A stretch of DNA of 64,000 nucleotides, taken from the NCBI RefSeq assembly GCF_018310535.1, contig NZ_CP074102.1, positions 1,116,001 to 1,180,000 of the forward strand. Direction: 5' to 3'. The translations under genes and the position numbers were made by a program. Shown in pieces: positions 18,510 to 44,953 of the stretch. Source of the DNA: Streptomyces mirabilis (GTDB lineage Bacteria; Actinomycetota; Actinomycetes; Streptomycetales; Streptomycetaceae). The notes below the pieces were generated by a model, which searched no databases, had not been told where the DNA came from, and saw only the letters and a list, made by a program, of their open reading frames with translations. Within the stretch, counting starts at the first letter, position 1. Every line of letters starts with the position of its first letter.

Positions 18510-18722
18510 TCACGAGGAGGGCCCGTGGTATCTCGACCCCGTGCCGTTCCACTTCTCCGGGTCCTCGGCCCGGTGGTGGTGGTTCACCGTGCCGGACGAC
18601 GGGTGGTTCGCCACTCCGTCGACGGGGGAACCGACGATGACGGCGGCCAGGATGAACGGCAGCGCCAGGACGGCGGCAAGCAGGGACTGACGCAGCGGAA
18701 CGCCGGATTTGCATCGCTTCAC
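18510..18722 (-). CDS. Possible 70-aa membrane/secreted peptide at island edge
   Basis: The GTG frame starts VKRCKSGVPLRQ, then a hydrophobic helix (LLAAVLALPFILAAVIV), then a polar tail rich in His and Gly (TVNHHHRAEDPEKW). It looks like a signal peptide or single-span protein. The ribosome-binding site is weak. It is oriented with the SARP and LuxR genes. I cannot assign a role. Confidence 0.35.
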   Translation of the reverse strand: MKRCKSGVPLRQSLLAAVLALPFILAAVIVGSPVDGVANHPSSGTVNHHHRAEDPEKWNGTGSRYHGPSS

Positions 18723-18909
18723 TTTATGTATCCGTTCTGGTGAGTTCTGCGCCGCGTGCCACCGGGCCCGCAGCGATTGGCCATGCTGGCAGGCCGTGAT
18801 CAACGGGTGATCAATGTGCAGGTCAGGCGGTGAATCGGTGGCTGCTGTGCCCAATGCCGCGACGGCCGCCTCCGCGACGGGAGCGCCTTCCCGCGGGCCG
18901 TGAACGACG

Positions 18910-19767
18910 TCATGGAGCGACGCTCCGGTCCGTCGTCAGGCCACCCATGATGTCCGCGTCGTCGGCCAGGATCGCCTGGTGCAGCGCATGCAACTGCCGT
19001 CCGGGGAAGATTCCCAGGTCGTCGGCGAGCAGCTGGTACGCCTCGCGATAGGTGGCCAGCGCGGCGTGGCGTTGGCCGGACCGCCACAGGGCCATCATGA
19101 GATCCGCGCGCAGTCGTTCCTGGTGCGGATGATCAGCGACCGTGGCGAGGAGTTCGGGAATTATCTCGAAGTGCTGACCGTCCGCGAGCTGCGCCTGGAA
19201 GTACTTCATCAGCAGTCCGAGCCGGAACTGTTCCAGCCTGGCCGCCTCGGCCTGCATGACCAGAGTGTGGGTGAGGCCGCTCAGAGGCTTGCCCCGCCAC
19301 AGCCGGATCGCCTCGCGCAGCAGCCTGCCGGCCTCCTTGGGCGCACCGTTGTGGAGGCTTTCCTGGCCGAGCTGCCACAGTTGCTGGCACCGCTCCAGGT
19401 CGACCTGATCGGACTCGGCCGTGAGCTGGTACCCGTCGCTGGTCGTGATCAGACGGACGCCGGTCGCGTAGGCGAACTGCCGGCGCAGGCGGCTCACGTA
19501 CAGTTGGATGTTCTTCTTGGCGCTCGAGGGTGGTGCCTCTCCCCAGACGGCCTCGATGATGTTGTCGACCGAGACGTGCCGGTTGGCATGGAGACACAGG
19601 TAGGCGAAGAGGATCTGCGGCTTCGCTCCTCCCGGGGACACGGTGACACCGGACACGAGGATCTCGAGCGGCCCTAAGAGATTCAGCTGAGTGGGGCCGG
19701 TCTCGACCCCCGCGTCCGGGTCGGCGTCCGAACGGGACGTTCCGCCGCCCTGCCACGCTCTGCGCAT
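18910..19767 (-). CDS. SARP-family transcriptional activator
   Basis: This 285-residue regulator starts at an ATG with GGAG upstream. The OmpR-type winged-helix domain spans about residues 25-115 (LNLLGPLEILVSGVTVSPGG, LFAYLCLHANRHVSVDNIIE, NIQLYVSRLRRQF). A bacterial transcriptional activation domain follows (GAPKEAGRLLREAIRLWRGK to LLADDLGIFPGRQLHALHQA). Proteins of this size activate one adjacent pathway by binding direct repeats near -35 regions. Codon 31 is TTA (19675-19677), the rare leucine codon read by the developmental tRNA BldA. It is probably the cluster-situated activator of the leftward operon. Confidence 0.9.
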   Translation of the reverse strand: MRRAWQGGGTSRSDADPDAGVETGPTQLNLLGPLEILVSGVTVSPGGAKPQILFAYLCLHANRHVSVDNIIEAVWGEAPPSSAKKNIQLYVSRLRRQFAYATGVRLITTSDGYQLTAESDQVDLERCQQLWQLGQESLHNGAPKEAGRLLREAIRLWRGKPLSGLTHTLVMQAEAARLEQFRLGLLMKYFQAQLADGQHFEIIPELLATVADHPHQERLRADLMMALWRSGQRHAALATYREAYQLLADDLGIFPGRQLHALHQAILADDADIMGGLTTDRSVAP

Positions 19768-19881
19768 GAGCTCCACTCCTACCCCCTTACGAGAAACAAG
19801 GACCATCCGGGGAAATGGCGACGCGTCCTGATGACGGGCCGCGTGTCAGACGAGGGGCAGGGCATAGACTCATCCGGATTC

Positions 19882-20613
19882 CTATTTTATGAACTCATCG
19901 GCGACCCGGGGCGGCCACGAATTGATTTGCAGTATTCCCGTCGAGTAGGCGAGCGCGATCAGCGCCACCCGATTCGGCATGCCGAACTGCCGGAGCATGC
20001 GCGAGATGTGGTAATCGACGGTCTTGGGGCTGATGAATAAACGTGAGGCCAGGAATTCTGATGTCAATCCTGCCGCGGTTCCTTCGAGGATTTTCGCCGC
20101 CATCTCACCGATGACCAGACTCTCGCTGACGGTCTTCGGCCCGGCGGGGTCCGTGGGGTGGAAGAGCTGTATGACCACGGCCCTGTTCGGCGAACTACCC
20201 CACAGGGCTGTCGCCGTGAGCACGGCCCTGAGCGGTGTGGCAGACCGTCGCCGCATTGCTATGCGGTGACTGAACTGGTCCCGGTCTCCGACGAGCAGCT
20301 GGTTCAGGTCGCGGTCGAGAGCCTCGCGGAGGTCCGATTCTATGAGGTAGCGAAACGGCTTTCCGTACAGTTCCTCGCCCGACCCGCCGAACTGTCGGAA
20401 GAATTCCGGACTCCCGTACTGCATCTGGTGCTTGCGGTCGAGAAAAACCAAGACCTCTCTGTCCGTTGTCAGCGCAGAATGACCCATTCGTGCTCCTGTG
20501 GCTTTCGACTGCACCCTGCCGGCCCGATCGACGGCGACTCGCAGGGCAGACTTGTCGTAGGCGCCGCTGGGCATGGAGCGCTGCACGCGCCCGACCTGTT
20601 CGGTTACGGCCAT
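19882..20613 (-). CDS. PAS-LuxR type transcriptional regulator
   Basis: A product of 243 residues. A PAS-like sensor covers about residues 50-150 (VLVFLDRKHQMQYGSPEFFR, GSGEELYGKPFRYLIESDLR). A C-terminal LuxR-type helix-turn-helix follows: AAGLTSEFLASRLFISPKTV, DYHISRMLRQFGMPNRVAL. This matches the PimM-like architecture used by antibiotic clusters. Codon 192 is TTA (20038-20040), within the recognition helix region. It lies upstream of the SARP gene and on the same strand, and probably acts with it. Confidence 0.85.
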   Translation of the reverse strand: MAVTEQVGRVQRSMPSGAYDKSALRVAVDRAGRVQSKATGARMGHSALTTDREVLVFLDRKHQMQYGSPEFFRQFGGSGEELYGKPFRYLIESDLREALDRDLNQLLVGDRDQFSHRIAMRRRSATPLRAVLTATALWGSSPNRAVVIQLFHPTDPAGPKTVSESLVIGEMAAKILEGTAAGLTSEFLASRLFISPKTVDYHISRMLRQFGMPNRVALIALAYSTGILQINSWPPRVADEFIK

Positions 20614-20839: not shown

Positions 20840-21775
20840 TCACCGCGGATCGGCGTATCCGGCGGCCAGGTCACCGAGCGAGACCGGTGCACCGGGATCG
20901 GGCAGGGCGGCAAGCCTGGTCCGCCTCGCGTGGTCCACCAGGTCCTGAGGGGTCAGACCGGCCAGTGCCTTGCTCACGTGCTCGAGCATGGCGGTGGCGG
21001 CGGCGAGGACGGCTTCGTCGTCCAGGGGACGCGCTTCGACGTTCATCGCCCTGGCCGTGAGCTTCTGGAGGCTGCGGAACAGATCGCCCTTGTGGACCTC
21101 ACGGATCGTCAGTGACAGGTGCACGGACAGGCCGTCGCTGCCGACTGCCTCGTGGGCGAAGGCGCGTGGGATGTACAGGACGTCCCCGGCGTGCACGGTG
21201 GCGCGCAGCACCTCCGCCGGCTTCTCCCCTTCCACACTCCCCTCGCGCCATTCACCGTTCGCCGGTCCCTCGTAGACACGCCAGTCCTTGCTGCCGGCCA
21301 GTTGGAGAACGAGCACATCGGCGTCGTCGCGATGCAGTGGAGCTCCCTGGGCGCCGGGCGGGGTGACGAAGCAGAACGCCTCCACCGGCCGCTGGAGTTC
21401 GGCCGAGAGGCGGGCCAGCAGATCGCGGGTGGGGCGGTGCCACTGGTCGACCCGGTGCATGAGCAGGGTCGCGCCCTGCTCGATCAGTCCCCGTATCTTC
21501 TTCTGGTCGGCGAACCCCGGGTGGGAGACGCCTCGGACCGAACGTGCCGAGAAGTAGGTGTCGGTGGGCAGGGGACCCTCGGCGCCGGTCATCTCCAGGT
21601 AGGGCTCGTGCAGGAAGCCGCTGGCGAGGGCGTCGTCCACGTCGGCCGGCGTGAAGGGACTGACGAGGGAGCCGTCGGGAGTGAAGACACCGGGACGGCG
21701 GCGCCAGTGGTCGGCGGCGAAGGCCGCCGGGTCGCCGACCCACCGGGACAGTGTCGTGGAGTGCGCAATGGTCAT
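20840..21775 (-). CDS. JmjC/cupin-type Fe(II)/2-oxoglutarate oxygenase
   Basis: This 311-residue protein starts at an ATG overlapping the preceding stop (ATGA). It belongs to the JmjC-like cupin family related to ribosomal-protein hydroxylases. The HxD iron motif is visible in GAPLHRDDADVLVLQLAGSK, and the distal His in VLYIPRAFAHEAVGS. The N-terminus WVGDPAAFAADHWRRRPGVF is also typical. In these clusters such enzymes hydroxylate a peptide or a carrier-bound amino or acyl group. It is the last gene of the leftward operon. Whether it tailors the peptide or protects the ribosome cannot be told from sequence. Confidence 0.85.
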   Translation of the reverse strand: MTIAHSTTLSRWVGDPAAFAADHWRRRPGVFTPDGSLVSPFTPADVDDALASGFLHEPYLEMTGAEGPLPTDTYFSARSVRGVSHPGFADQKKIRGLIEQGATLLMHRVDQWHRPTRDLLARLSAELQRPVEAFCFVTPPGAQGAPLHRDDADVLVLQLAGSKDWRVYEGPANGEWREGSVEGEKPAEVLRATVHAGDVLYIPRAFAHEAVGSDGLSVHLSLTIREVHKGDLFRSLQKLTARAMNVEARPLDDEAVLAAATAMLEHVSKALAGLTPQDLVDHARRTRLAALPDPGAPVSLGDLAAGYADPR

Positions 21776-23517
21776 GTCGTGCGTTCCTCTCTGTGCTCGG
21801 ACGATGTGCGCCGGGGCACGTGGGGCCGGAGAACGGGCAGGTCGCCCCGCTCGAAGCGCTGTTTCGTCTCGGAGATCCGCACCTTGCCGCTGGTCGTCAC
21901 GGGAAGGCCGCCGGCGGGCAGCAGGGCGACCTCGGAGACGTACAGGTCGAGGACCTGGGCGAGCCGGCGCCGTACCTGGGCGGCCACCTGCGCGGGGGAC
22001 GGTGCGCCGGAGCCGCCGGTCACTTCCGAGACCAGGCACAGGAGTTCGCCGGCCGCCTCGTCCTCGACGGTGAAGGCGGCGCACCGCCCCGGTCTGAGGC
22101 CCGGTACGGCGGCACAGGCCGCGGCGATGTCCGCCGGGTGGAAGTTGCGGCCGCGGTGCACGAGTACGTCGTCCGTCCGTCCGAGGACGAACAGCTGGCC
22201 GCCGTCGAGGAACCCGAGGTCCCTGGTGGGATGCCAACGGGATCGCCGGACCGGCTTGCGCCAGTAGCCGCTGAAGAGTTGCGGGCCCCGGATGTGGATC
22301 TCTCCCACGCGGTGCGGGTCCTGGCGGCCGTCGCCGATGCGTACCCGGGTTCCCGGCAGCGGGCCGCCCGAGGAGAGCAGGGTGGTGGAGGGGGTTCCCC
22401 GCGCGGCGCGGACCGCGCGGCCCGCACGCAGTGCTTCGGTGCTGACGGCGAGGCGGAGCGGCGGGAGTTCGGGGGTGGTGGCGGTGACCGTGAGGGTCGC
22501 CTCCGCCATCCCGTACGAGGGACACAGGACCTCGGCCCGGAACCCCGCTGCCGCGAACCGGGCGGCGAACCGCTCGGCGGTGGCGGTGCGGACCACCTCA
22601 CCCGCGCTGCGCGCGACCCGCCAGGCACGCAGATCCAGGGTGGCCATCTCGTCGTCGGTGGTCTTGCGCGCGCACAGGTCGTACGCGAAGTCGGGAGCGC
22701 TGGACAGCGTGCCGCGGCAGACGGTGAGAGCGGAGAGCCATTCCGCCGGACGGCGGGCGAAGCGCTCGGTCGGCAGGAGCACGGACTCGTATCCGCTGAA
22801 CAGCGGCCTGAGGATTCCGGTGATCAGACCCATGTCGTGGCTGAGCGGCACCCATGTCACGGCGACGTCGGCCGGGCTCTCGCGGTAGCAGACGGCCGCT
22901 TGGCGGCAACTCGACCGCAGGGCACGGTGATCGATGACGACGCCCTTGGGAGAGCCGGTCGATCCGGAGGTGTACTGGAGAAAGGCGGGTGTTCGCGGGC
23001 TCACCCGTACGTCGGGCGCGCCGCCGCGCTCCGGCACGGCGGCGGCGACCGCCGGCAGCTCCTCCCAGGTGCGGATCCTGACCCGCGTGGCGGAGTCCTC
23101 CAGCGCGGGGCGCACCGTGTCCCGCCACGCTTCCGTGGTGATCACGAGAGCCGGGCAGCAGTCCCAAACGATGGCACGCAGTCGCTGCTCGAACGCCTCC
23201 GCGCGCATCGTGCGCGGGCCCGGGGCGGGAACCGCGACGAGTCCGGTGCCGATCACGGCCAGCAGGACGGCGGCGAACGTCTCGTCGTTCGGCAGCACCA
23301 GGACCACCCGTTGTCCGGGTTCGGCGTCCAGGCCCCGCAGCGCGCGGGCGACGGTGTCCACCAGCCGGTCCAGTTCCCCGAAGGTCGTACGGCGCCGGAT
23401 CTCCCCTTCGTCCCAGCTGGTCAGGGCGATGGCTTCCGCCCGCTGCCGGGCGTGGTGCCGGAGCCATCCGGTGGCTGTGACGGAGTCGTGGGCCGGTCCT
23501 CCGCTACCGGGGGCCAC
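21772..23517 (-). CDS. Fatty acyl-AMP ligase (FAAL)-like adenylating enzyme
   Basis: This 581-residue ANL-superfamily enzyme starts at a GTG overlapping the upstream ligase gene by 14 bp. Motifs include the phosphate-binding LQYTSGSTGSPKGVV, the FAAL/acyl-ligase signature WVPLSHDMGLITGIL, PSYGMAEATLTVTAT and the hinge region LFVLGRTDDVLVHRGRNFHP. The last is close to FAAL enzymes, which make acyl-adenylates and pass them to carrier proteins rather than to CoA. The likely acceptor is the carrier protein at 24923. The acyl substrate cannot be predicted. Confidence 0.85.
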   Translation of the reverse strand: MAPGSGGPAHDSVTATGWLRHHARQRAEAIALTSWDEGEIRRRTTFGELDRLVDTVARALRGLDAEPGQRVVLVLPNDETFAAVLLAVIGTGLVAVPAPGPRTMRAEAFEQRLRAIVWDCCPALVITTEAWRDTVRPALEDSATRVRIRTWEELPAVAAAVPERGGAPDVRVSPRTPAFLQYTSGSTGSPKGVVIDHRALRSSCRQAAVCYRESPADVAVTWVPLSHDMGLITGILRPLFSGYESVLLPTERFARRPAEWLSALTVCRGTLSSAPDFAYDLCARKTTDDEMATLDLRAWRVARSAGEVVRTATAERFAARFAAAGFRAEVLCPSYGMAEATLTVTATTPELPPLRLAVSTEALRAGRAVRAARGTPSTTLLSSGGPLPGTRVRIGDGRQDPHRVGEIHIRGPQLFSGYWRKPVRRSRWHPTRDLGFLDGGQLFVLGRTDDVLVHRGRNFHPADIAAACAAVPGLRPGRCAAFTVEDEAAGELLCLVSEVTGGSGAPSPAQVAAQVRRRLAQVLDLYVSEVALLPAGGLPVTTSGKVRISETKQRFERGDLPVLRPHVPRRTSSEHREERTT

Positions 23518-24916
23518 GCGGAGCGCTCCGGGCCAGGACGCCGAGATCGGCCCGCCTCAGCTTGCCGCTGGGCGTACGGGGCAGGGAGCCCGAAACCGCG
23601 AGCACGACGCGCGGACAGGGCAGGTCCAGTTCTTCCGCCGTGGCCTCGATGGCGGGCACCGGGTCCTGGAAGTCGGCACCGTGACCGTGTTCCACGAAGC
23701 ACACCGGTCGGTCGCCGGCGCCGTCGAGGGCGGCGGCGTCGGTGACTCCGGGCAGCAACCGGATGTCGTGCTCCAGTCGCGCCATCCGGATCTCCCGCGG
23801 GCTCTCGGCCCGGCCGAGGACGAACAGATATCCCTCGTCGTCGAGATGGCCCACGTCCCCGGTCTTCAGCACGCCGGTGTCGGTCGGATCCCGGTCGGCC
23901 GCCCGCAGCCGGATGTCTATGTCCCCGGTCTCGCCCGCGGGCACGGGCCGGCCCTCCCGCGAGATCTCGACGCGGATCCCCGGCAGGGGCCGTCCGACGG
24001 ATCCGGGCCTGGCCAGCCACTCCGCCGTGGTGATCTCGGTGATGACACCGTGGGACGTGCCGTAGTACTCGTGCAGGACCGGCCCGAACAGGTCGATGGC
24101 CGCGCGCTTGACCCCGGGTGGGCAGGCGGCTCCGCCGTGGAAGACGACCTGGAAGGGGTGGCTCGGTGCCGCGCCGGCCTCGACGAGGTCGGTCAGGCGG
24201 TCGGGGCTGAGCATGGCGCTGTCCGCACGGTGACGGTCCGCCAGTTCCGTGAAGGCGTCGCAGGACCAGCTTCGCTGGACGACGACCGTGCTGCCCGCCT
24301 GCAGCGCGTACAGGGCGGGGCCGAGAGTGCCCAAGTGGTAGGTGGGGTTGGCCATCAGGTGCGGGCCCCGGCCGACTCCGGCGCCGTAGCGTTCGACGAC
24401 CGCGACCCCGCGGTACGGCCTGCGCGGACGTGTCCGCGCCACGGCCTGCGGCAGTCCGGTGGTACCGGAGGTGGCGAACACGAGGCGGCCCGCGGCCGGC
24501 GGCGTCGCGGGCGTGGCGGGGCCGTCCGTCCGGGCCGTCAGCTGCGTGTCGGTCACGACCGGGCAGGGCAGGGCGGCTCCGTCGGCCCAGGGCCGCGCAC
24601 TGATGTGTACGGCGGTGGACACCGAATCGAGCAGGGACGGTCCCATGGGAATCCCGAGCAGCTCACGGTCGATGGGGAAGAGACCGAAGCCGTGTCGCAG
24701 CGCGGCCAGGGCCAGCGCGAAGAAGGCCGGTCCGGTGGGAATGTCGGTCGACACGACCGCGCCGTCCGGGATCCCGTGGGCGCGCAGCCCCCGGGCCAGG
24801 GCGTCCGCGCGGCCGGTGAGATCGCCGTAGGTGCTCTGCTCGCCGTCGGCGATCACGGCCATGCGGTCCGGGTGGGTCCGCGCGGTGGCCCAGGGGTCCC
24901 AGAGATAAGGCTTCAT
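23504..24916 (-). CDS. AMP-dependent acyl/aryl ligase (ANL superfamily)
   Basis: A 470-residue adenylating enzyme, shorter than typical members. The start is an ATG with a GAGGAATC site. Motifs present: LVFATSGTTGLPQAVART (P-loop), HEYYGTSHGVITEI (A5), VLKTGDVGHLDDEGYLFVLG (A7-A8 hinge) and SLPRTPSGKLRRADL with the C-terminal catalytic Lys. The architecture resembles CoA or carrier-protein ligases rather than NRPS A-domains embedded in modules. With the FAAL it gives two activation enzymes for a single carrier protein, so one may load an amino or aryl acid and the other a fatty acid. Confidence 0.8.
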   Translation of the reverse strand: MKPYLWDPWATARTHPDRMAVIADGEQSTYGDLTGRADALARGLRAHGIPDGAVVSTDIPTGPAFFALALAALRHGFGLFPIDRELLGIPMGPSLLDSVSTAVHISARPWADGAALPCPVVTDTQLTARTDGPATPATPPAAGRLVFATSGTTGLPQAVARTRPRRPYRGVAVVERYGAGVGRGPHLMANPTYHLGTLGPALYALQAGSTVVVQRSWSCDAFTELADRHRADSAMLSPDRLTDLVEAGAAPSHPFQVVFHGGAACPPGVKRAAIDLFGPVLHEYYGTSHGVITEITTAEWLARPGSVGRPLPGIRVEISREGRPVPAGETGDIDIRLRAADRDPTDTGVLKTGDVGHLDDEGYLFVLGRAESPREIRMARLEHDIRLLPGVTDAAALDGAGDRPVCFVEHGHGADFQDPVPAIEATAEELDLPCPRVVLAVSGSLPRTPSGKLRRADLGVLARSAPRGPR

Positions 24917-24922: not shown

Positions 24923-25171
24923 TCAGTGCTTGGCTGTCGACGAGGCGGGAGAGGGCTGCGCGAGCGCGGCGGCGAGTGCCTCGAGGTCGGGGAGGCTGAC
25001 GACCAGTTCGACATCGACCTCGACGCCCAGGCTCTCCTCCAGACGGAGGCTCAGTTCGACCGCGGTGATGGAGTCGCCGCCGAGGGCGAAGAAATCGTCC
25101 TCGGGCACGACCGGCCTGCCGAACACCTCGCTCACGGCGGTCAGTACCTCGTCGATCGGCGTGTCGGACAT
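24923..25171 (-). CDS. Stand-alone acyl/peptidyl carrier protein
   Basis: This 82-residue carrier protein has the phosphopantetheine attachment motif FFALGGDSITAVELSLRLEE. The serine near residue 34 receives the arm. Aspartate after GG and the DSI pattern are as common in PCPs as in ACPs. It lies between the condensation-type gene and the two ligases in one operon, which makes it their shared acyl carrier. No phosphopantetheinyl transferase is in the window, so a chromosomal one would be needed. Confidence 0.9.
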   Translation of the reverse strand: MSDTPIDEVLTAVSEVFGRPVVPEDDFFALGGDSITAVELSLRLEESLGVEVDVELVVSLPDLEALAAALAQPSPASSTAKH

Positions 25172-25249: not shown

Positions 25250-26578
25250 TCATCCGGCGGGCACGGTGGCCGCCAGGCCGGCGAGCATGTCGTCCAGGAC
25301 CGACCGTGCCAGCCGGCGGTCGGCCCGGTGCCCGTCGTAGAGGAGGTCGACGCACAGGCGGTCGCGGAACTCCGTGCACCGGAGGTGAAGTGCGAAGGTG
25401 TCATGAAAGGTGATCCTGTGCAGCGGGTAGGCGTCAGCCGTGATGCGCAGACCGCCGATGTCGTCCGCGACCGCGGAGTTCCCTTCGAACCGGCGCAGGT
25501 TGACGTAGATGTCGCGGCTGACGGGTGCGCCGCCGGTCTCCTCCGCCTCCCTGGTCAGCGCGGTGAGGTCCTCGGCGTCGAGCCTCTGGTGCCGGAGCCC
25601 GTTGAGCAGTTGATCACGCACCTGTGTCCGCACGGAGAAGGCGTCGGCGCCGGCGTCGCGCAGGATCAGCGGGCAGGAGCCGGCGAACATGCCCACCACG
25701 TCCATGTCTCGGGACGCACGCGAGTCCATCGAGGTCCACAGTCCCACTTCGGACATGCCGGTTCGAGTGGCCAGTGCGGTGACGAACAACCCGACCGCCG
25801 ACTGCAGGACGGTGAAGCGGAACTCGGCGCACAGACCACGCAGCGCCGTGACCGTCGCGGCCGGCAGTTCCGCGCTCACCATGCCTCCTTCCGCGGTGTC
25901 GGCCTCGGCGGGGCCGGTCCGGGGCCAGGAAACGCGGGTCATGAAGGCCAGGCGTTCCCGCCAGTTCGCCTGCGCCTGCTCGCGCAGCCGCTCGCTCGTC
26001 CGCTCCCGCTGCCGGACCGCCGCGTCGGCGAACGAGGGGGCGGTGTCCGGCGGGGACCCGCCGTCGCGCAGGGTCTGGTAGTCGCGCCAGACCTCATGCC
26101 CGAAGAGGTGATGGGCCCGGCCGTCGAAGACGAGGTTCTGGAAGGTGGCCAGCAGCGCGTGGTGGTTCTCGTCGTAGCGCAGCAGCCTGATGACGAACGG
26201 CCGTTGTGTGCCGTACGACCACGGGGTGACGCAGTCGCGGGACAGCAGGACCGAGGCGTAGTGGGAGAACTGTGCGGGCGAGGCGGCCTTCACCTTCACC
26301 CGTCGGACGACTTCCTCCTCGGCCTCGATGCCCCGGGTCCACTGCAACGGGTGCGGGCCCGGCACCGGATCCATCTGGAGGTGCAGGGCGTCGTGCCGGA
26401 CCACGAAGGCTCGTACGGCCGCGGCGAGGGCGTCCGTGTCGAGGCCGCCCAGGATCTCGAACGCGAGCTGAGTGTTCTTGTGGGACCAGCCGCTGGAGAG
26501 GGTCTTGGTGTGGAACCACTCCTGCTCGTAGGTCAGGGGGAACGGGGTACGCACCCGTGAGGCCGTCAGGCGAGGCAC
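25250..26578 (-). CDS. Stand-alone condensation-domain protein with degenerate HHxxxDG
   Basis: This 442-residue NRPS condensation-type fold has the N-terminal LTYEQEW motif and RHDALH (C2). C3 reads QNLVFDG at residues 147-153, where HHxxxDG is expected, so the catalytic second His is Asn while Asp and Gly remain. Later motifs include GMFAGSCPLILRD and LDAEDLTAL. The GTG at 26578 overlaps the ABC gene end and has GGAG at good spacing. It may transfer an acyl or aminoacyl group from the carrier protein to the peptide by other means, act as a scaffold, or be inactive. Confidence 0.85.
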   Translation of the reverse strand: MPRLTASRVRTPFPLTYEQEWFHTKTLSSGWSHKNTQLAFEILGGLDTDALAAAVRAFVVRHDALHLQMDPVPGPHPLQWTRGIEAEEEVVRRVKVKAASPAQFSHYASVLLSRDCVTPWSYGTQRPFVIRLLRYDENHHALLATFQNLVFDGRAHHLFGHEVWRDYQTLRDGGSPPDTAPSFADAAVRQRERTSERLREQAQANWRERLAFMTRVSWPRTGPAEADTAEGGMVSAELPAATVTALRGLCAEFRFTVLQSAVGLFVTALATRTGMSEVGLWTSMDSRASRDMDVVGMFAGSCPLILRDAGADAFSVRTQVRDQLLNGLRHQRLDAEDLTALTREAEETGGAPVSRDIYVNLRRFEGNSAVADDIGGLRITADAYPLHRITFHDTFALHLRCTEFRDRLCVDLLYDGHRADRRLARSVLDDMLAGLAATVPAG

Positions 26579-28851: not shown

Positions 28852-28920
28852 GAGTCCCTTCCCGTTGTGAGTCACTGGCCTGTCTGCCCGCGACAGGACG
28901 TCCGGACGTGAGCCGTCGGC

Positions 28921-28976: not shown

Positions 28977-29078
28977 TCAGATGACGCAGGTGAGGGAAAT
29001 CCCGAACTGGCCGCCGACGATGTCGTCCAGCTCCTCTTCCGACAGGTCGGAAATGTCGATGTCGTCGAAGTTTTCCAT
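28977..29078 (-). CDS. RiPP precursor peptide, 33 aa, double-glycine leader
   Basis: An acidic leader of 23 residues ends in EEELDDIVGG, the classic double-glycine cleavage site for C39 peptidases. The predicted core is the decapeptide QFGISLTCVI. AGAGAGAAG gives a ribosome-binding site. The next gene is the matching peptidase-exporter. The core has one Gly, one Ser, one Thr and one Cys. No lanthionine synthetase, cyclodehydratase E1 partner or LanD is in the window, so modification should come from YcaO-TfuA, the radical SAM enzymes or the oxygenases. The gene is too short for most gene finders. The ORF can be extended upstream in frame, but without a better start. Confidence 0.85.
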   Translation of the reverse strand: MENFDDIDISDLSEEELDDIVGGQFGISLTCVI

Positions 29079-29694: not shown

Positions 29695-29735
29695 ATGCTC
29701 TGAGCATGTGCCGTATGCGTGGAGGAATGATCTCG

Positions 29736-33028: not shown

Positions 33029-36058
<3,030 letters not shown>

Positions 36059-36305: not shown

Positions 36306-36656
36306 ATGCCCAAACCTCGCGAACAGAAGGACAACCACCTCATCTACGCCGACGCCGTGGGGTCGCGCGGTAAGTCGGGCGTGTGGTTCGGCGAGCGCGA
36401 AGACTTCAAGGCCAAGCAGGTCAGCGTGATGGACGCCGTCAAGGAGCGGATCGAGTGGGTGCCGGTCGAGGACGCCGTCATGGCGATCAGCCTTGACCCG
36501 CCCGGCATCGTTCTCATGGCGCCCAACCCGTCGCTGCCCGGCATCATCGTCCTCGCCGACGGTGCGACGTCCGAGAACACCGAGCACCTCAAGAAGCACT
36601 ACACCGAGATCGTTCAGGGTGTCCTGAAGGACGCGAACATCGCGCAAGAAGACTGA
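36306..36656 (+). CDS. Unknown 116-aa protein, possible scaffold or substrate
   Basis: The ATG start is preceded by AGGAGG. The protein is soluble and Cys-free. It has a basic start (MPKPREQKDNHLIYADAVGS), a middle with KSGVWFGEREDF, a hydrophobic Pro-rich strand region (AISLDPPGIVLMAPNPSLPG) and a helical C-terminus (NTEHLKKHYTEIVQGVLKDA). I recognise no family. It is the first gene of the rightward operon and is separated from the radical SAM genes by a hairpin, the layout expected of a product needed in excess. A precursor, a scaffold on which residues are modified, or a peptide-binding partner are all possible. Confidence 0.7.
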   Translation: MPKPREQKDNHLIYADAVGSRGKSGVWFGEREDFKAKQVSVMDAVKERIEWVPVEDAVMAISLDPPGIVLMAPNPSLPGIIVLADGATSENTEHLKKHYTEIVQGVLKDANIAQED

Positions 36657-36768: not shown

Positions 36769-38064
36769 GTGACGAACGATGCCGATCGACTCTGGAACAA
36801 GTATTTGCTTGTCGCTCAGGGGGCGGAGGGTATTGTTTTTGATCCCGTCTCCCTGGGGAGCGCGAGTCTCACCGCCGATGAGATGAAGCGGATCCGCGAC
36901 GACGAGCCCCAGATCCTGGCGGAGATGAAACAGCTGGGCTTCACTTCCGAGCCGCCGGCCGCACCTCAGCGTGATCTCATCTTCGACCGGCTCAACGGGC
37001 TGGGGATGACCGGAAAGCCGCCGCGGATCAGCGGATACCGCATCGTGGTGACCGACCGCTGCAACATGACCTGCACGTACTGCTTCGTGGACACCAACAC
37101 GGGCGCCGACGACATCACCATCCCCGACCTCCGCGAAGGGCTCGAGTACCTCTTCGAGCAGAACGCCGGCCAGGAGGAGGTCACCATTCAGTGGTTCGGC
37201 GGTGAGCCGACCACCCGGTTCGACCTCATGCAGTACGGAGACGAGTACGCTCTCGAACTCGCCGAGAAGCACGGCGTGGGGCGTGTGCAGTTCACCGTCG
37301 TCACCAACGGTGTCCTGATCAAGGACCCCATGATCGAGCACTTCAAGAAGTTCAAGTACGGCGTGGGCGTCTCCTTCGACGGGGCTCCGGACGACAACAA
37401 GGTCGAGCGGTTCCTGCTGTCGGGCAAGCCTGCGGACCAGCGGATCCACCGGAACATCCAGCGGCTGCTCGATGCCGGGGTGCACGTGGGCTGCAACCTC
37501 ACCCCCACGCCGGTCAATGTGAGCAACCTGCCGGACACCGTCGAGTACGTGCTGTCCCTCGGCATCAACTTCATCTACGTCAACACCCCCATTCCGATCT
37601 CCGGCCGCTGGCACGTCGACGGCGAGGCGCTGTGCCGCGCGGTGTTCCGTTCGCGGCTTCTGGCGCTGTCCCGCGGTGCCATGCTGTTCTCCTCGCTCGA
37701 CCGCATCTATCAGGCCCTGGACACCCGCCTGCCGAAGATGTACGAGCACATCCAGCAGGACGGCGGCCTGAACGCGGCTCTGCTGTCCCGCGGGCGCATC
37801 TCCATCCTCGACCTGAACTGGCGCGACGACTCGTTCGTCTTCCCGATCAGTCAGCTTCGGGAGCAGCCTGAGCTGCTGGCGGGAGCCGCCAAGAACCTCC
37901 TGCCGGCGAAGCAGTGCGGAGAGTGCCCCGCCGCCGCCGTCTGCGGTGGTCCGTCCCGCAACGACGTCTCGCTCCGGAACAACCCCGAGCCCGATCCGCA
38001 GATGTGCGACTTCTTCCAGGTGGGTCTCGAACTCGCCCTGACCGACCACACGGGGTTGCAGTGA
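36769..38064 (+). CDS. Radical SAM enzyme with SPASM-type C-terminus
   Basis: This 431-residue radical SAM enzyme has its [4Fe-4S] motif CNMTCTYC (Cys98, Cys102, Cys105) and GGEPT in IQWFGGEPTTRF. The C-terminal cysteine set CGECPAAAVCGGPSRND (Cys383, 386, 392) plus a last Cys in DPQMCDFF is a SPASM or twitch arrangement for auxiliary clusters. SPASM proteins typically modify peptides by C-C, C-S or C-O crosslinks, or by residue excision or epimerisation. The N-terminal about 70 residues may bind the substrate. AGGAG precedes the GTG start. It is coupled by GTGA to the next gene. Confidence 0.9.
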   Translation: MTNDADRLWNKYLLVAQGAEGIVFDPVSLGSASLTADEMKRIRDDEPQILAEMKQLGFTSEPPAAPQRDLIFDRLNGLGMTGKPPRISGYRIVVTDRCNMTCTYCFVDTNTGADDITIPDLREGLEYLFEQNAGQEEVTIQWFGGEPTTRFDLMQYGDEYALELAEKHGVGRVQFTVVTNGVLIKDPMIEHFKKFKYGVGVSFDGAPDDNKVERFLLSGKPADQRIHRNIQRLLDAGVHVGCNLTPTPVNVSNLPDTVEYVLSLGINFIYVNTPIPISGRWHVDGEALCRAVFRSRLLALSRGAMLFSSLDRIYQALDTRLPKMYEHIQQDGGLNAALLSRGRISILDLNWRDDSFVFPISQLREQPELLAGAAKNLLPAKQCGECPAAAVCGGPSRNDVSLRNNPEPDPQMCDFFQVGLELALTDHTGLQ

Positions 38065-38921
38065 CCGACAGCCTCGGAGCACTCCGCGGAGTACTCGTCT
38101 CGACCGCCGACAACTGCGAAGTGAACTGCCGGTTCTGCTTCCGGGCCGATGTCGGACGCGACGTCCTGAGCCTCAACACCTACGCCCGGGCACTGTCGCG
38201 GCTCCACGAACTCGGCGTTGACGAGCTGTGCTTGTCCGGCGGCGAGCCGACCGACCACCCGGAGTTCCGTCAACTCGTGCGCGTCGCACTTCAGTTCGGC
38301 TTCCGCACCTCGGTGGTCACCGCCGCCAGGACCGGCCCGCGACTCGATGCCCTCGCCGGTGTCGCCGGCATGCTCAGTCACGTAACCGTCTCCGCCGACA
38401 GCCGTAGAGCGGACGAAATCGGCCGCACCGGCCGCACGATCTCCTCGACGCCGAAGGTCTTCGAGGCGCTGGGACACCGTCGGGCGAGCCTGCATGTCAC
38501 CGCATACGAGCTGGACGAAGACGACCTGAAGGCCATCGTCTCGGTGGTCGAGACGGCCGATGTCCCGGTGGAGGTCAGCCCGCTGCTGCCGTCGCCGACG
38601 TTCCGTTTCGAGAATCCCCACCTCAAGCGCGACCTGGCGTTGATCGACACCTTCTTCGGCATGTCGGAGCAGCTGAGGACAGTGGTGTCGGACTACCACG
38701 AGTGGCTGCGCGGCCCGGTCGTCCGGTCCTGCCAGTCCGCGCGGCTGTACCTGTCCGCGGACGGCTTCCTGCGCCGCTGCCCCTACGACAGCTCTCAGCA
38801 GGTGTCGGTCTTCGCGACGCGGCAGGAGATCGGCGAGGCGCTCGAGCAGTCGTTCTGCGAACCACCGACCACCGGTCTGGCCTGCATGGCGATCTGCCGT
38901 TCGGAATCCCACGAAGGGTGA
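38061..38921 (+). CDS. Second radical SAM enzyme
   Basis: A 286-residue product from a GTG overlapping the previous stop by 4 bases. The cluster motif is CEVNCRFC (Cys19, Cys23, Cys26), and the GGE motif is in ELCLSGGEPTDHPEF. C-terminal cysteines (RRCPYDSSQQ, QSFCEPP, LACMAICRS) could hold one auxiliary cluster. It lacks the B12-binding and methyltransferase features of class B/C methylases. With its neighbour it probably acts sequentially on the same substrate. Confidence 0.87.
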   Translation: MTDSLGALRGVLVSTADNCEVNCRFCFRADVGRDVLSLNTYARALSRLHELGVDELCLSGGEPTDHPEFRQLVRVALQFGFRTSVVTAARTGPRLDALAGVAGMLSHVTVSADSRRADEIGRTGRTISSTPKVFEALGHRRASLHVTAYELDEDDLKAIVSVVETADVPVEVSPLLPSPTFRFENPHLKRDLALIDTFFGMSEQLRTVVSDYHEWLRGPVVRSCQSARLYLSADGFLRRCPYDSSQQVSVFATRQEIGEALEQSFCEPPTTGLACMAICRSESHEG

Positions 38922-38928: not shown

Positions 38929-39738
38929 ATGAACACGATGCAAGATCAGCCGTCCGTGGTGATCGGCACCATGCGCTGCTCGGGGTCCTTCAACGGCCTG
39001 ATGGTGCTGGGTCGCGACGCGGACGAGGGCCGGGAGTTCGTCGAGGGTGCGATCGCCCAGGGCTTCACCACGTTCGACACCTCGCCCGTGTATGCCCGCG
39101 GGAGAGCGGAGGAGGACCTCGGCGCGCACCTTCCCGGCGACGCGTCGGTCTGGACCAAGGTCGGGATCGACACCACCACTCCCCTGCCCACCCTGGACTA
39201 CAGCCTCGAAGGAATGGCCAAGTCGCTGCAGGGAAGCCTGAAGCGGCTCGGGCGGGACCACGTCGAGGTCGCCTTCGTGCACAATCCGGAGCCGAGGCGG
39301 GTGTCGGACATCGACTTCGCCGGGTTCGCCAGGCACTGCTCACGGACGGGGCAGGCGGATCTGGTGGGCGTCAGTGTGCTGCTGCCGGACGTGAGTCTGC
39401 CGCAGATCGCCGGCAGGCTGCCCGCCGGCAGCGTGGTCATGTGCGAGGCGGACCAGCTGGATCCGCAGGACACGAACGTGACGCGCCTCCTCGCCGACTA
39501 CCGTCTCGTGGTCCGCAGTCTCTTCTCGGGCGGCTCTCGGCTGCGGGCGGTACCGCCCGAGCGCAGGGCGGAGGCGATCGCCGCCAGGATCTCCGAGATC
39601 CACGAGATCTACCGCCCCGAAGCCGTGGTCATCGGCCCTCGGACCAAGGAGCAGCTGGATGACTACGAGGCGGGGCCGGCCTGGCTCACGTCCGCTGCTC
39701 GGCACTCCGCACCCGGGCGGTCCCATGTCACTCGATGA
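38929..39738 (+). CDS. Aldo-keto reductase
   Basis: A 269-residue NADPH-type oxidoreductase with the AKR barrel. GFTTFDTSPVYARGRAEEDL holds the catalytic Asp and Tyr, followed by WTKVG, and HVEVAFVHNPEP replaces the usual hydrophobic HxP motif. GVSVLLPDV and IGPRTKEQLDDY form the cofactor end. The ATG at 38929 is preferred to a TTG 6 bases earlier; GAAGGG lies in front. The likely job is reduction of a ketone or imine formed by an oxygenase or radical SAM step in this operon. Its end overlaps the next gene by 14 bp. Confidence 0.85.
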   Translation: MNTMQDQPSVVIGTMRCSGSFNGLMVLGRDADEGREFVEGAIAQGFTTFDTSPVYARGRAEEDLGAHLPGDASVWTKVGIDTTTPLPTLDYSLEGMAKSLQGSLKRLGRDHVEVAFVHNPEPRRVSDIDFAGFARHCSRTGQADLVGVSVLLPDVSLPQIAGRLPAGSVVMCEADQLDPQDTNVTRLLADYRLVVRSLFSGGSRLRAVPPERRAEAIAARISEIHEIYRPEAVVIGPRTKEQLDDYEAGPAWLTSAARHSAPGRSHVTR

Positions 39739-40408
39739 GGCGGAGGTCGCGCAGCAGCTGCGGATGTTCGGATTCGCCCGCCTCCGGGGGGCCGCCGCGG
39801 ACACCGTGGAGGAACTGCAGCGTGCTTTCGGCCGGCTGATCGATCTGCCGGCGGACGGTACGCCGAACGAGAGAGTCACCAGGTTCGACGCCCTCAACGA
39901 GATGCCCGAGCTGGGGCTGATCTCCGGATCGGCGTGGGTGGGCGCGATCTGTGGGGCGTTCTTCGAACGCAACCACCAGGTCATCACCAGCGATGCCAAC
40001 GCGCTCGTCGGCGACTCGTACTGGCACTCGGACGGTTTCTACACCACGCCGTTCCTGCGTTTCGTTCTGTACCTGGACGCCACCGCGCACGACACGGGTG
40101 CCCTGCGTTTCCTTCCCGGTTCACATCGAGCCGACAACGGCTGGCTCGGGGAACCGACCCAGCACGTCATCAGGCACGGGGAGGACCTCGGCCTCACCGG
40201 TGGCGACGTTCCGGCGGTGGTCGTCGAGTCCGAGCCCGGCGACGTCATCGTCTTCGACACGAACGTCCTGCACTCGGCATGGCACGGCGACATACGACGG
40301 CAGCTGGCGTTCAACTGTGTCGGTGACCCGGTGACCGAGACCGAGCAGCGCGACACGCGTCGCTACTTCCTCAACCGCTACGTCTCCGGATCGGTGTCAA
40401 TCGGATGA
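39725..40408 (+). CDS. PhyH-family Fe(II)/2-oxoglutarate dioxygenase 1
   Basis: A 227-residue dioxygenase of the phytanoyl-CoA hydroxylase family. The iron ligands are His101 and Asp103 in YWHSDGFYT and the distal His183 in NVLHSAWHG. The 2-oxoglutarate-binding Arg is in DIRRQLAFN. GALRFLPGSHRADNG is characteristic. The ATG at 39725 lies inside the end of the reductase gene, so the two are translationally coupled. It probably hydroxylates an aliphatic residue or an acyl chain. Confidence 0.87.
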   Translation: MSLDEAEVAQQLRMFGFARLRGAAADTVEELQRAFGRLIDLPADGTPNERVTRFDALNEMPELGLISGSAWVGAICGAFFERNHQVITSDANALVGDSYWHSDGFYTTPFLRFVLYLDATAHDTGALRFLPGSHRADNGWLGEPTQHVIRHGEDLGLTGGDVPAVVVESEPGDVIVFDTNVLHSAWHGDIRRQLAFNCVGDPVTETEQRDTRRYFLNRYVSGSVSIG

Positions 40409-41091
40409 GACTCACCTCTTTGTCGGTGACCGACGCCGAGGTCACCCGCTTCAGGACGTTCGGGTTCCTCCACCTGCGCGGTGTGCAGATCGACGTCGTG
40501 CCGGCCGTCGCCGACGCCTTCGAAGACGTCTTCGAGAACTTCCCGCAGGTCGGCCGGCAGGGGCGTGCGGGCGTCGCCCGGATCGCCGAGCGCAGCGAGG
40601 TGCTCCAGAAGGTGCTCCTGGCCGACGACCGGTGTCCTCAGGTGGCACGTCGGCTGCTGGGCACGGATGTCGTCTACGTCGGCGGCGACGGAGTCCGCTA
40701 CGACGGTGCCACCTACTGGCACCGGGACGGGAACCACCGCGCTCTGCGGCTCCTCAAGATCGTCCAGTATCTGGAGCCGCTCGACGGCGACACCGGAGCG
40801 CTGCGGTTCATTCCCGGCACCCACCGCAGAGGCGGGAGCTGGGACTCGTTCGCCGCGGAGATGGAGAACCCGATGCGTCGCCTCGGGATGCGGCCCGAGG
40901 AGGTGCCGGCCTTCACCGTCGACTCCTCCCCCGGTGACCTCGTCGCCTTCGATCCGCACTCCTACCATGCGTCGTTCGGCGGTGCCGACAAGCGGCGGCA
41001 GATCACCACGACGTATGCGGCCGTGCCGGAGTCGGCCGAAGCGCGTCAGGAGCTGACGAGCTATCTGCTCGCCGACCGATCGCTCCTGTAG
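40405..41091 (+). CDS. PhyH-family Fe(II)/2-oxoglutarate dioxygenase 2
   Basis: This 228-residue paralogue overlaps the previous gene by 4 bases (ATGA). Iron ligands are His106 and Asp108 in YWHRDGNHR; the distal His is in DPHSYHASFGG (His185 or His188), and KRRQITTTY holds the co-substrate Arg. GALRFIPGTHRRGGSW parallels the first enzyme. The two differ enough to suggest different positions of attack rather than recent duplication. Confidence 0.87.
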   Translation: MRLTSLSVTDAEVTRFRTFGFLHLRGVQIDVVPAVADAFEDVFENFPQVGRQGRAGVARIAERSEVLQKVLLADDRCPQVARRLLGTDVVYVGGDGVRYDGATYWHRDGNHRALRLLKIVQYLEPLDGDTGALRFIPGTHRRGGSWDSFAAEMENPMRRLGMRPEEVPAFTVDSSPGDLVAFDPHSYHASFGGADKRRQITTTYAAVPESAEARQELTSYLLADRSLL

Positions 41092-42523: not shown

Positions 42524-43774
42524 ATGATGGTCGAACCGAACAGCCTGACAGCCCTGCGCCCGGACAGCTTTCAGCCTGATGCGGAAAGTTCGGAGGCCGG
42601 ACACGCCAGAAGTTTCGAGGAGACGTGGGACTTCCTGAAACCACTGCTGCCCCGCGTCCCCGTCACGCGCGTGTACGACACCACCCCCCTGGATTACATC
42701 AGCTCCCCCGTGTGGTCGGCCGTGACCCCTCTGGCCAAAGACCTGATGGTGAGCGCGGGAAAGGGGGCGACGCCGATCGGGGCGAAGCTCAGCGCCGTCA
42801 TGGAGGCGATCGAGCGCGTCTCGGCCGAGGAGATTCCGGCCCGCCGGATCGTCAGGGGTTCCTACGAGGAACTCGCTCCCGCCGCTGCGGTCGACCCGGA
42901 GGACTTCAGCCTGCCGCAGGACACGACGTACCGGCCCGACGCCGTTTTCTCCTGGACGGGAGCGTACGACCTGGCGCAGGGGGGCCATCATCTGGTGCCG
43001 ACCGACCTCGTCCTCAATCCCTCCACGGAAGGCATGACAGCTCGGATCGAGACCAACGGGCTCGCCTCCGGAAATACGTATTCAGAGGCGGTCCTCCACG
43101 CGGTCGGTGAGCTTGTCGAGCGCGACGCGGTGTCGGAGGAAGCGTTCTACTCCGCTCACCACGACCCGGTTTTCTCTCCTCGTCGACCTTTGAGGGTCAT
43201 ATCTCCGGAGTCGGTTCCAGCCGGAACCGCGAAGGAGCTCATCGACGCGCTGACCGGTCAGGGTCTGGTTGTCCGGATACAGGATCTGACCAACGTGATC
43301 GACATTCCGGTCATCCGGGTCGTCCTTTTCGACGACGGCTACTTCGGGCAGGAGGGCAAGGTGACCTACTTCCCCGGGTACGGGGCCGACCTCCAGCCCG
43401 AACGGGCGCTGCTTCGCGCTCTCACCGAGGCGTGCCAAGGTCACGCCAGCTTCGCCACGGGTGCGCGAGAGGTGTTCGAGACCGGGCGCGCGCGGCGCAG
43501 GCCGGCCGAGCTGAAGCGGCTCGACTCTCTTTACCGGAACCCCGGCTCCCTGGCGTTCCCGCAGGCCAAGGACGGCAGCGGCAGCATCCTGCAGAACATA
43601 CACACGGTCGTCGGCCGACTGCGGGACGCAGGACACGAAAAGTGCCTGGTGACAGAACTTACCCGCGAGGATCTCGGCGTGCCGGTGGTTCGTGTCCTGG
43701 TTCCGGGCCTCGCGTCTCCCTACGGTGAGAGTTCGCGCACCCCTACCCTCCGCCTGCTGGAATCGGTGATCTGA
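42524..43774 (+). CDS. YcaO-domain ATP-dependent peptide-backbone enzyme
   Basis: A 416-residue YcaO enzyme that activates a backbone amide with ATP. Family landmarks are DLMVSAGKGATPIGAKLSAV, MEAIERVSAEE (ATP/Mg ligands), ETNGLASGNTYSEAVLHAVG and ELVERDAVSEEAF. The C-terminus ends LRLLESVI and lacks the PxPxP tail of azoline-forming enzymes that work with an E1-like partner; no such partner is present. With TfuA directly downstream, thioamide formation is the best-supported reaction. AAGG lies 8 bases before the ATG. Confidence 0.92.
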   Translation: MMVEPNSLTALRPDSFQPDAESSEAGHARSFEETWDFLKPLLPRVPVTRVYDTTPLDYISSPVWSAVTPLAKDLMVSAGKGATPIGAKLSAVMEAIERVSAEEIPARRIVRGSYEELAPAAAVDPEDFSLPQDTTYRPDAVFSWTGAYDLAQGGHHLVPTDLVLNPSTEGMTARIETNGLASGNTYSEAVLHAVGELVERDAVSEEAFYSAHHDPVFSPRRPLRVISPESVPAGTAKELIDALTGQGLVVRIQDLTNVIDIPVIRVVLFDDGYFGQEGKVTYFPGYGADLQPERALLRALTEACQGHASFATGAREVFETGRARRRPAELKRLDSLYRNPGSLAFPQAKDGSGSILQNIHTVVGRLRDAGHEKCLVTELTREDLGVPVVRVLVPGLASPYGESSRTPTLRLLESVI

Positions 43775-43777
43775 GCC

Positions 43778-44953
43778 ATGAGAACCACCATATTCACCGG
43801 GCCGTCCCTGCCGCCGGGCGAGGCACGGGCCCTTCTGCCGCAGGCGTACGTCCTTCCCCCCGCGAAACGCGGCGACGTCTACCGGGCCAGAGAAAGCGGA
43901 AGCTCCCGGATCCTCATCATCGACGGATCGTTTTCGCAGGTGCTCCCGGTGTCACCCCGAGAGGTCGTCGAGGTGGCTCGCGACGGCGCTCAGATCGTCG
44001 GGGCGTCCAGTATGGGGGCCATACGGGCCGCGGAATGCTGGCCCGTCGGCGTCCACGGTGTCGGAGCCGTCTACAGGATGTACCGGTCCGGCCTCTTCGA
44101 TTCGGACGACCCCGTGGTGGTCGCGACGGATCCCGACGACGACCACTCGGCGGTGAGCGTCGCCCTGGTCAATATCCGCGCGGCGATCAGAAAGCTGTAC
44201 GGTCTCAAGCTGATCACCCGGTCCCAGGGTGTGGAGCTTCACCGGGTCGCCGCCGAATCGTACTATCCCGACCGGGTCTGGCGGCTTCTGTTCAAGAAGG
44301 CCGGGATCGAAGACCCGAGTGGCGTGATAGGTGAAGTCGCAGCCTCCGTCGACATCAAGAGGGTGGACGCACTGAGGGCTGTTCGCTTTCTTTCGCTCCT
44401 GCCCGACGGGGCACCTGCCGATGGAACCGACCGCCGATTCAGCCAAGGGCCGCGATACTCCTCGCACGACCCGCTTCTCGGCCACAGCCGTGAAGAACTC
44501 GATCTGTCACTCCCTCCGTTCATATTCGGAACCGGCCGGTATCAGAAATACATCCGGTTCCTGCTGGCCGGACAGCTCGATTTCGCAGGACTGACCACCG
44601 GGAGCGAGTCGAAGCTGTCCCGGAATTCCTCGGTCGAGCCGGCTCTCGCGGGCCTCTTCCTGGACATTCCGTCACTGTCCGCAAACCTGATGGACAAGAT
44701 TCATCATTTCAGGCAGTTCGAGACGGAAGTGATGCTGTGGCATGCGGTTCACCGGCTGAAGGATCACAAGACGAGCCGCACGGAGGTGACACCCCCGCAT
44801 GAGACCAAGGTCAGGGACTCGATAGCGAAGGCCCACGGCTATGACAACTGGGACGCGCTGACAACCGACTTGCGTGACGACGCTCTGCCCAGCGGGGTCC
44901 CCCTCGACTGGATCGAGGAAGCCTGTCACGACTTGACTCTCGCCAGGTCCTGA
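43778..44953 (+). CDS. TfuA-like protein (thioamidation partner)
   Basis: A 391-residue protein starting 3 bases after the YcaO stop. The TfuA core is clear: TTIFTGPSLPPGEARALLP, ILIIDGSFSQVLPVSPREVV and QIVGASSMGAIRAAECWPVG, then YRMYRSGLFDSDDPV. It has a longer C-terminal region than minimal TfuA proteins (HHFRQFETEVMLWHAVHRLK). In thioviridamide-type and McrA systems TfuA acts with YcaO, supplying or channelling sulfide. The cluster has no sulfur-transferase gene, so the sulfur would come from general metabolism. Last gene of the rightward arm. Confidence 0.9.
   Translation: MRTTIFTGPSLPPGEARALLPQAYVLPPAKRGDVYRARESGSSRILIIDGSFSQVLPVSPREVVEVARDGAQIVGASSMGAIRAAECWPVGVHGVGAVYRMYRSGLFDSDDPVVVATDPDDDHSAVSVALVNIRAAIRKLYGLKLITRSQGVELHRVAAESYYPDRVWRLLFKKAGIEDPSGVIGEVAASVDIKRVDALRAVRFLSLLPDGAPADGTDRRFSQGPRYSSHDPLLGHSREELDLSLPPFIFGTGRYQKYIRFLLAGQLDFAGLTTGSESKLSRNSSVEPALAGLFLDIPSLSANLMDKIHHFRQFETEVMLWHAVHRLKDHKTSRTEVTPPHETKVRDSIAKAHGYDNWDALTTDLRDDALPSGVPLDWIEEACHDLTLARS

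Follow-up and report, generated by a model that had tools for sequence, protein, structure and literature searches.

A mobile two-module gene island in Streptomyces mirabilis suggests an antibiotic aimed at glycyl-tRNA synthetase

The sequence considered here, called the window, is a stretch of 64,000 nt at 1.116-1.180 Mb of the 9.6-Mb genome of Streptomyces mirabilis. It contains an island of about 27 kb, with a left arm on the reverse strand and a right arm on the forward strand, which as judged from sequence comparison is a horizontally mobile unit found with both arms together in three Streptomyces species. Its gene content suggests an antibiotic aimed at glycyl-tRNA synthetase (GlyRS). 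The reading preferred here, tentatively and at slightly less than even confidence, is of a mobile cluster of two modules, in which a pathway to an inhibitor of an aminoacyl-tRNA synthetase (aaRS), in this case GlyRS, is joined to one for an acylated, possibly thioamidated ribosomal peptide.

Extent and transfer of the island

By blastn, the conserved block covers positions 18253-45124 of the window in comparison with S. hyaluromycini (99% identity) and 18157-45015 in comparison with S. shenzhenensis (96-97%), a discrete unit bounded at about 18.2 and 45.1 kb. A preliminary description of this DNA had placed the limits close to these, at 18510-44953, and the gene families it named agree with the Pfam and NCBIfam results, although an AfsR-type regulator was missing from its list. 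In S. shenzhenensis the island is split over two contigs, and a stretch of about 2 kb within the AfsR gene (33.8-35.9 kb) is missing from both. S. hyaluromycini has additional matches outside the block at 45193-45420 (228 bases, 97%) and 17872-18092 (a 222-base stretch, 83%).

The sequences flanking the island differ among the three species (about 5-7 kb per side compared). The only window flank gene to score was a P450, which matched the island's own P450. As a baseline, one region per genome was used, the 20 kb around the housekeeping GlyRS gene, which is 87.2% identical to its counterpart in S. hyaluromycini (7.8 kb aligned) and 87.1% identical in S. shenzhenensis (6.6 kb). Identities of 96-99% in the island against 87% for housekeeping sequence, together with the different flanks, therefore point to recent transfer of the block, both arms together. 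Since one set of genes in one order was found in three species, it is not a chance assemblage. There were no plasmid matches to the island, no Rfam elements at gathering score in 18000-46000, and no repeats at the island ends, where the only candidate was a 16-base direct match (17885/45667) outside the conserved block.

A radical SAM cassette linked to foreign-type synthetases

The right arm begins with a gene for a protein of 116 aa, u116 (36306-36656, forward strand, as are all genes of this arm), conserved over residues 1-103 and without Pfam or NCBIfam match. It is followed by two radical SAM genes, rSAM1 (36769-38064), with four conserved C-terminal Cys in a SPASM-like arrangement, and rSAM2 (38061-38921; Pfam). 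Next are an aldo/keto reductase (AKR, 38929-39738), two oxygenases, PhyH1 (39725-40408) and PhyH2 (40405-41091), and a cytochrome P450 (41149-42345), all assigned by Pfam. Start codons at 38061 for rSAM2 and 39725 for PhyH1 were the likelier by codon score, as was 21775 for the left-arm JmjC gene. The arm ends with adjacent YcaO (42524-43774; Pfam) and TfuA (43778-44953; PF07812, with NF033432 below cut-off) genes, as in clusters for thioamidated ribosomally synthesized and post-translationally modified peptides (RiPPs).

At E ≤1e-20, rSAM1 was found in 20 of 295 genomes sampled from the genus; at E 1e-60, the window's own was the only one among 394 genomes from the class. With two loci from S. 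shenzhenensis, the genus sample gives 22 rSAM1 loci, and at every one u116, rSAM1 and rSAM2 are adjacent, with u116 always ahead of rSAM1. At 16 of them (15 of the 20 sample genomes and one S. shenzhenensis locus), the three genes are accompanied by F3, a weak Cupin_8 match below cut-off, and by a convergent gene, F4. The F4 product of locus L036 exceeds the cut-offs of NF003483 and TIGR00458 (aspartate--tRNA(Asn) ligase), and F4 passes TIGR00458 in 15 of 15 sampled genomes; it is a non-discriminating, archaeal-type aspartyl-tRNA synthetase (ND-AspRS). The remaining loci (window, G275, S. shenzhenensis, G011, G005, and G073) carry AKR, PhyH1, and PhyH2.

The u116-rSAM cassette is linked to genes for foreign-type aaRS, one of which lies within about 11 kb of rSAM1 at 20 of the 22 loci: ND-AspRS at 16 and a fused alpha-beta GlyRS at four, 4 kb away in the window, 10 kb in G011, and in one case inferred across a contig break. 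In G005, with u116, both radical SAM genes, AKR, PhyH1, and PhyH2, the fused GlyRS is about 250 kb off, and a nonribosomal peptide synthetase (NRPS) gene adjoins the cassette. Two AKR-PhyH loci without a left arm encode proteins between u116 and an NRPS-type gene (L030:10081-11949, 622 aa; L031:11287-13248, 653 aa), the 622-aa one with no Pfam or NCBIfam match.

The island GlyRS (29727-32777, forward) scores 1427 bits against NF011499, with a cut-off of 1244. It is a second GlyRS and the sole copy of the fused alpha-beta type in the genome; a housekeeping role was rejected because a separate alpha2 GlyRS exists (G000:C1:5915831). Such housekeeping enzymes are retained in every genome checked, with an alpha2 GlyRS in 17 of 17 genomes having the fused form and a bacterial AspRS in all 15 AspRS-cassette genomes of the sample. 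As would be expected for self-resistance, then, the extra aaRS lies inside the cluster, the housekeeping copy is kept, and the two differ in type (alpha-beta as opposed to alpha2 GlyRS, archaeal-type as opposed to bacterial AspRS). In a tree, the island and G005 GlyRS fall in a single clade (100/100), from which 12 fused enzymes that stand alone are separate.

The fused GlyRS may thus provide self-resistance by target replacement, in which case the target would be the producer's ordinary alpha2-type GlyRS. Archaeal/eukaryotic-type dimeric GlyRS and alpha2beta2 GlyRS are described as different subclasses in PMC7916415, so an inhibitor of one type could well leave the other unaffected. The GlyRS, from which the preliminary description drew nothing, seems to point most clearly to the target of the product.

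ND-AspRS genes were found in 28 of the 295 genus genomes, 15 of them with rSAM1 (Fisher p 8e-14, kinship ignored) and 13 without. The non-cassette copies number 15, from those 13 genomes (two in G169) plus a second copy in G006. All but the G020 copy (38%) show 81-92% identity to the F4 product of L036, and five are near genes for SerRS (three) or GluRS (two), although the three SerRS-side loci have common neighbors and may represent one event.

These copies bear on another possible role, in which the aaRS would be biosynthetic, its charged tRNA donating glycine (or aspartate) to the product as with AcmD-AcmF in ascamycin biosynthesis. According to PMC12945691, some natural-product clusters do use aaRS genes of their own, and AcmD has a double function, in supply and in self-resistance. 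However, neither a Lan-type PEARL nor a known aminoacyl-tRNA transferase is among the island Pfam results, though u116, which belongs to no recognized family, might conceivably be one; the isozymes differ structurally from the housekeeping enzymes, which tRNA supply would not need; and close AspRS relatives exist without the cassette. A biosynthetic role is accordingly judged decidedly unlikely. Because they lie outside u116-rSAM loci, these AspRS genes fit resistance better than a supply of tRNA to u116 chemistry, and as far as gene distribution can indicate, cassette-type AspRS without the cassette favors a resistance role.

Some surroundings of these copies can be recorded in their own right. 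The loci near SerRS or GluRS genes (L139, L145, L149, L150, and L153) could be aaRS resistance islands, and the AspRS copies of L139, L140, and L152, which have no u116-rSAM1 but have carbamoyltransferase, radical SAM, or ATP-grasp ligase genes as neighbors, are perhaps resistance genes of other clusters. At L147:9194-10920, a cut-down F3 oxygenase lies beside AspRS with no u116 or radical SAM genes among the neighboring genes, and has the look of a cassette remnant. Other neighbors include a carbamoyltransferase (G006), a carbamoyltransferase and a radical SAM protein (G284), and ATP-grasp ligase and ornithine-cyclodeaminase-like genes (G020).

The alignment of 19 u116 sequences has 34 invariant columns spread over residues 1-103, variation being confined to about the last 12 residues. 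For this reason, and with no variable core evident, u116 is thought unlikely to be an ordinary RiPP precursor, though a core could still lie in the tail. A profile search of the PDB gave a best E of 0.03, judged to be chance.

The left arm as a RiPP-like family

The preliminary description took this to be a RiPP-like island with a precursor gene in its middle, and a RiPP-type precursor is encoded at 28977-29078 (reverse strand, like the rest of this arm). The 33-aa peptide has a leader ending in GG and a ten-residue core (MENFDDIDISDLSEEELDDIVGG/QFGISLTCVI), with a purine-rich stretch (GAAAGAGAGAAG) directly upstream of the ATG. C39 peptidases cleave after the GG of such leaders, and the gene directly following encodes an ABC exporter with a C39 peptidase (26566-28875; Pfam). 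The catalytic motif of condensation domains is HHxxxDG; in the Condensation-domain-like (C-like) protein that comes next (25250-26578; Pfam) it is replaced by QNLVFDG. Then come a free-standing acyl/peptidyl carrier protein (24923-25171; PP-binding in Pfam, motif GGDSI), an AMP-forming ligase, AMP2 (23504-24916; AMP-binding in Pfam and NCBIfam), a 581-aa FAAL-like ligase (21772-23517; AMP-binding in Pfam), whose best NCBIfam matches include fatty acyl-AMP ligases, all below curated cut-offs, and a JmjC_2 Fe(II)/2-oxoglutarate oxygenase (20840-21775; Pfam). The Pfam results for 20 scanned proteins include no Lan enzymes or NRPS modules, in keeping with the preliminary description.

A pattern-based scan of 84,980 genomes with the AMP2 alignment gave 13 loci. 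Since the scan works by two short peptide patterns, any relatives lacking them escape it. Four Corynebacterium loci were unrelated ligases (22-25% identity) and were dropped before counting. The other nine, from eight genomes, with G023, G011, and the window, make up a set of 11 genomes in which, judging from gene families and order, the left arm is a separate RiPP-like family. Genes of relatives were predicted by a codon-score caller that missed or shortened some, the G011 carrier gene being found by tblastn only. The order precursor, C39-ABC, C-like, carrier, AMP2, FAAL is kept in nine of the 11, read for FH025 from two contig ends; G011 has no FAAL, and the Plantactinospora locus is partial, differently ordered, and without a visible precursor. 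An intact JmjC gene is present in eight and a broken one in G011, while none was seen in G023 or Plantactinospora. AMP2 is present in all 11, but as the scan query it biases the set toward its carriers.

Precursors were found in 10 of the 11 genomes, with eight distinct sequences that combine a conserved GG leader with a variable core and, without exception, have Cys at core position 8. In all nine rows of the C-like alignment, F(Q/N)N replaces the HH of HHxxxDG, and alignment against Txo2 from the PDB shows this replacement too. Three of the loci (L104, L105, and L110, Kitasatospora/FH025 left arms) have in common a set of upstream genes whose families, as tested on L104, are APH-like kinase, Gfo/Idh oxidoreductase, P450, and methyltransferase; L104 also has a radical SAM gene at its edge. 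A possible link through the P450s of other left-arm loci was dropped, as these are only 28-35% like the window P450.

YcaO-TfuA pairs thioamidate RiPPs, and the precursor here is a candidate substrate. However, close copies of the pair accompany a precursor only in the three full-island species: YcaO is 97-99% identical in full-island genomes and at most 39% elsewhere in the genus sample, and no YcaO-TfuA was found in the G011 region or in other left-arm loci with flanks of up to 10 kb. A single thioamidated or cyclophane RiPP could be envisioned, with rSAM1, rSAM2, and YcaO-TfuA all acting on the 33-aa precursor, u116 as a recognition partner, and GlyRS as a bystander. rSAM1 does resemble SPASM peptide maturases, PapB among them (a match to NF047865 at E 1.9e-31, below cut-off), and PMC8120280 reports a fused tfuA-ycaO gene beside two radical SAM genes in Burkholderia thailandensis. 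Set against this, u116-rSAM1-rSAM2 occurs without left-arm genes at the 16 AspRS loci, and seven left-arm genomes have no rSAM1, leaving such a product very improbable.

Are the two arms coupled?

The preliminary description proposed one joint product, to be doubted if either arm were conserved without the other. This is the case at the level of modules. Of 20 genomes with the right-arm core, 17 have no left arm, and of 11 with the left arm, seven have no rSAM1 (six of the seven named left-arm genomes searched, and G023). Because each arm occurs alone, they are two modules rather than one obligate pathway; what survives of the proposal is that the full island was transferred together in three species, and a further pairing in G011.

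Among the 295 genus genomes, the left arm (C-like identity at least 44%) and the GlyRS-type right arm are each found in five, and both in three (Fisher p 2e-5, or 8e-4 if near-identical islands are counted once, kinship otherwise being ignored). G011, a fourth pairing, has a right arm 75-91% identical to that of the window and a left arm from another lineage. In the left-arm tree, G011 groups with NRRL B-24085 (93/95) and G023, and the window with Kitasatospora and FH025. An approximately unbiased (AU) test rejects the window, S. shenzhenensis, and G011 as one group (p 2.8e-34, for a group chosen after the identities had been seen and with G011 on a long branch of odd composition). Two left-arm lineages have therefore met one rare right-arm type.

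The differing histories of the arms, their separate occurrence, and their separate regulators could also be explained by two independent pathways traveling together, the left for an acylated RiPP and the right, which includes the resistance gene, for an aaRS inhibitor, giving two products that are perhaps synergistic. A SARP-family regulator (18910-19806, reverse; BTAD and Trans_reg_C) and a PAS-LuxR regulator (19882-20613, reverse; GerE and PAS_4) close the left end of the island, while the AfsR-type regulator of 995 aa (33071-36058, forward; BTAD, NB-ARC, and TPR, all Pfam) stands ahead of the right arm. Independence is possible, if on balance doubtful: the full block moved as one unit between different flanks in three species, two different left arms are found near one rare right-arm type, and P450 and YcaO-TfuA end the right arm, yet the likelier substrate for thioamidation would be the left-arm peptide. 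Since the full island moves together and in G011 this type of right arm has a partner from a different left-arm lineage, these comparisons make co-operation of the arms more likely than mere adjacency.

A proposed pathway

In the two-module cluster preferred here, u116, rSAM1, and rSAM2 would produce a small aaRS inhibitor, tailored by AKR, PhyH1, PhyH2, and P450. The GG-leader precursor would be cut and exported by the C39-ABC protein. FAAL, AMP2, or both may charge the carrier protein with an acyl group, which the altered C-like protein would pass to the peptide, at its N-terminus or at the invariant Cys 8; JmjC may hydroxylate the peptide and YcaO-TfuA would probably thioamidate it. The finished peptide could then serve as carrier for the warhead made by the right module.

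Several points weigh against this. The part conserved among the 16 AspRS-type cassettes includes neither a peptide module nor an exporter, so that the warhead might by itself be the finished product; acyl transfer by a C-like protein without the catalytic motif is doubtful; and rSAM1, being like RiPP maturases, might have the left-arm peptide as its substrate. Nor is fused GlyRS unusual in the genus, as the 12 stand-alone copies among the 295 genomes (57-59% identical, one lineage in 12 genomes) are without such a cluster, and the enzyme type alone is therefore no proof of resistance. G073 has a GlyRS-type cassette, but in its assembly of 1140 contigs no fused GlyRS was found. Three non-cassette AspRS copies are near other biosynthetic-looking genes, so that not all are plain orphans. 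G011 has neither YcaO/TfuA nor FAAL, and it has only broken forms of JmjC and of the first PhyH1 and P450 copies, with transposase genes among them; with this decay, its pairing may be a chance rearrangement. Finally, we infer the compound, its activity, and the enzymatic functions from the genes.

A more specific version has u116 as a ribosomal substrate from which the two radical SAM enzymes would cut out a unit resembling an aminoacyl-adenylate, to be joined to the acylated decapeptide as a Trojan-horse antibiotic against GlyRS. The reasons for considering it are that u116 is the sole small protein always beside the maturase-like rSAM1, and that conservation over most of its length would follow if it gave a single invariant warhead and not a variable core. 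Tailoring might then set which synthetase is hit, the F3 oxygenase leading to AspRS and AKR with PhyH to GlyRS, while NRPS-type parts would build up the acylated ribosomal decapeptide. As a whole this version is unlikely.

Two observations fall outside the argument. On contig C29 of G011 (61259-64687), besides the broken first copies, a second complete-length P450-PhyH2-PhyH1 set adjoins an F3 homolog. To the left of the island in the window, a 1062-aa open frame without Pfam match (8150-11338) lies near an IS110 transposase gene.

Comparison with known systems

A search of the open-access literature, with most subscription papers outside its scope, gave no pathway with this gene set, as the preliminary description had supposed. 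The comparisons below apply to the available text of the papers cited. The system of PMC9113097 is similar in its FAAL-like ligase, free-standing carrier, and condensation-type protein; the island differs in having no NRPS module, a ribosomal peptide as likely acceptor, the extra ligase AMP2, and a C-type protein without HHxxxDG. Thioviridamide and thiovarsolin, thioamidated RiPPs, likewise have ycaO and tfuA side by side along with a precursor gene (PMC6511847, PMC8120280), but the island adds a C39 exporter with a GG leader, acyl-loading genes, and the u116-rSAM cassette, and its relatives are without YcaO-TfuA. Accessory genes of YcaO-TfuA clusters include AMP-binding, ACP, PhyH, P450, and radical SAM genes, although their co-occurrence within one cluster is not seen in that text (PMC8120280).

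The ascamycin and SB-203208 clusters also have a second aaRS giving self-resistance, an extra AlaRS or IleRS with nucleoside or sulfonamide chemistry (PMC12945691); the island GlyRS is, in contrast, of a different structural type from the housekeeping enzyme and accompanied by two radical SAM enzymes. The Trojan-horse aaRS inhibitors microcin C and albomycin resemble the proposed combination of carrier and aaRS warhead (PMC7916415), but the island Pfam results include no nucleotidyl-transferase or siderophore family, and judged by families the warhead genes are unrelated. Acyl decoration of a ribosomal peptide by NRPS-style parts is apparently undescribed, and no natural GlyRS-directed antibiotic is named in the open-access literature searched, as far as its available text goes.

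The island thus suggests an antibiotic with a testable target, GlyRS. It also defines two gene families for genome mining. One is the u116-rSAM-rSAM cassette, recognizable from its foreign AspRS or GlyRS gene. The other consists of GG-leader peptides together with their FAAL, carrier, and C-type proteins, and would unite NRPS-style acylation with ribosomal peptides. The presence of cassette-type AspRS copies elsewhere in Streptomyces suggests that inhibitors of this kind do play a part in nature.

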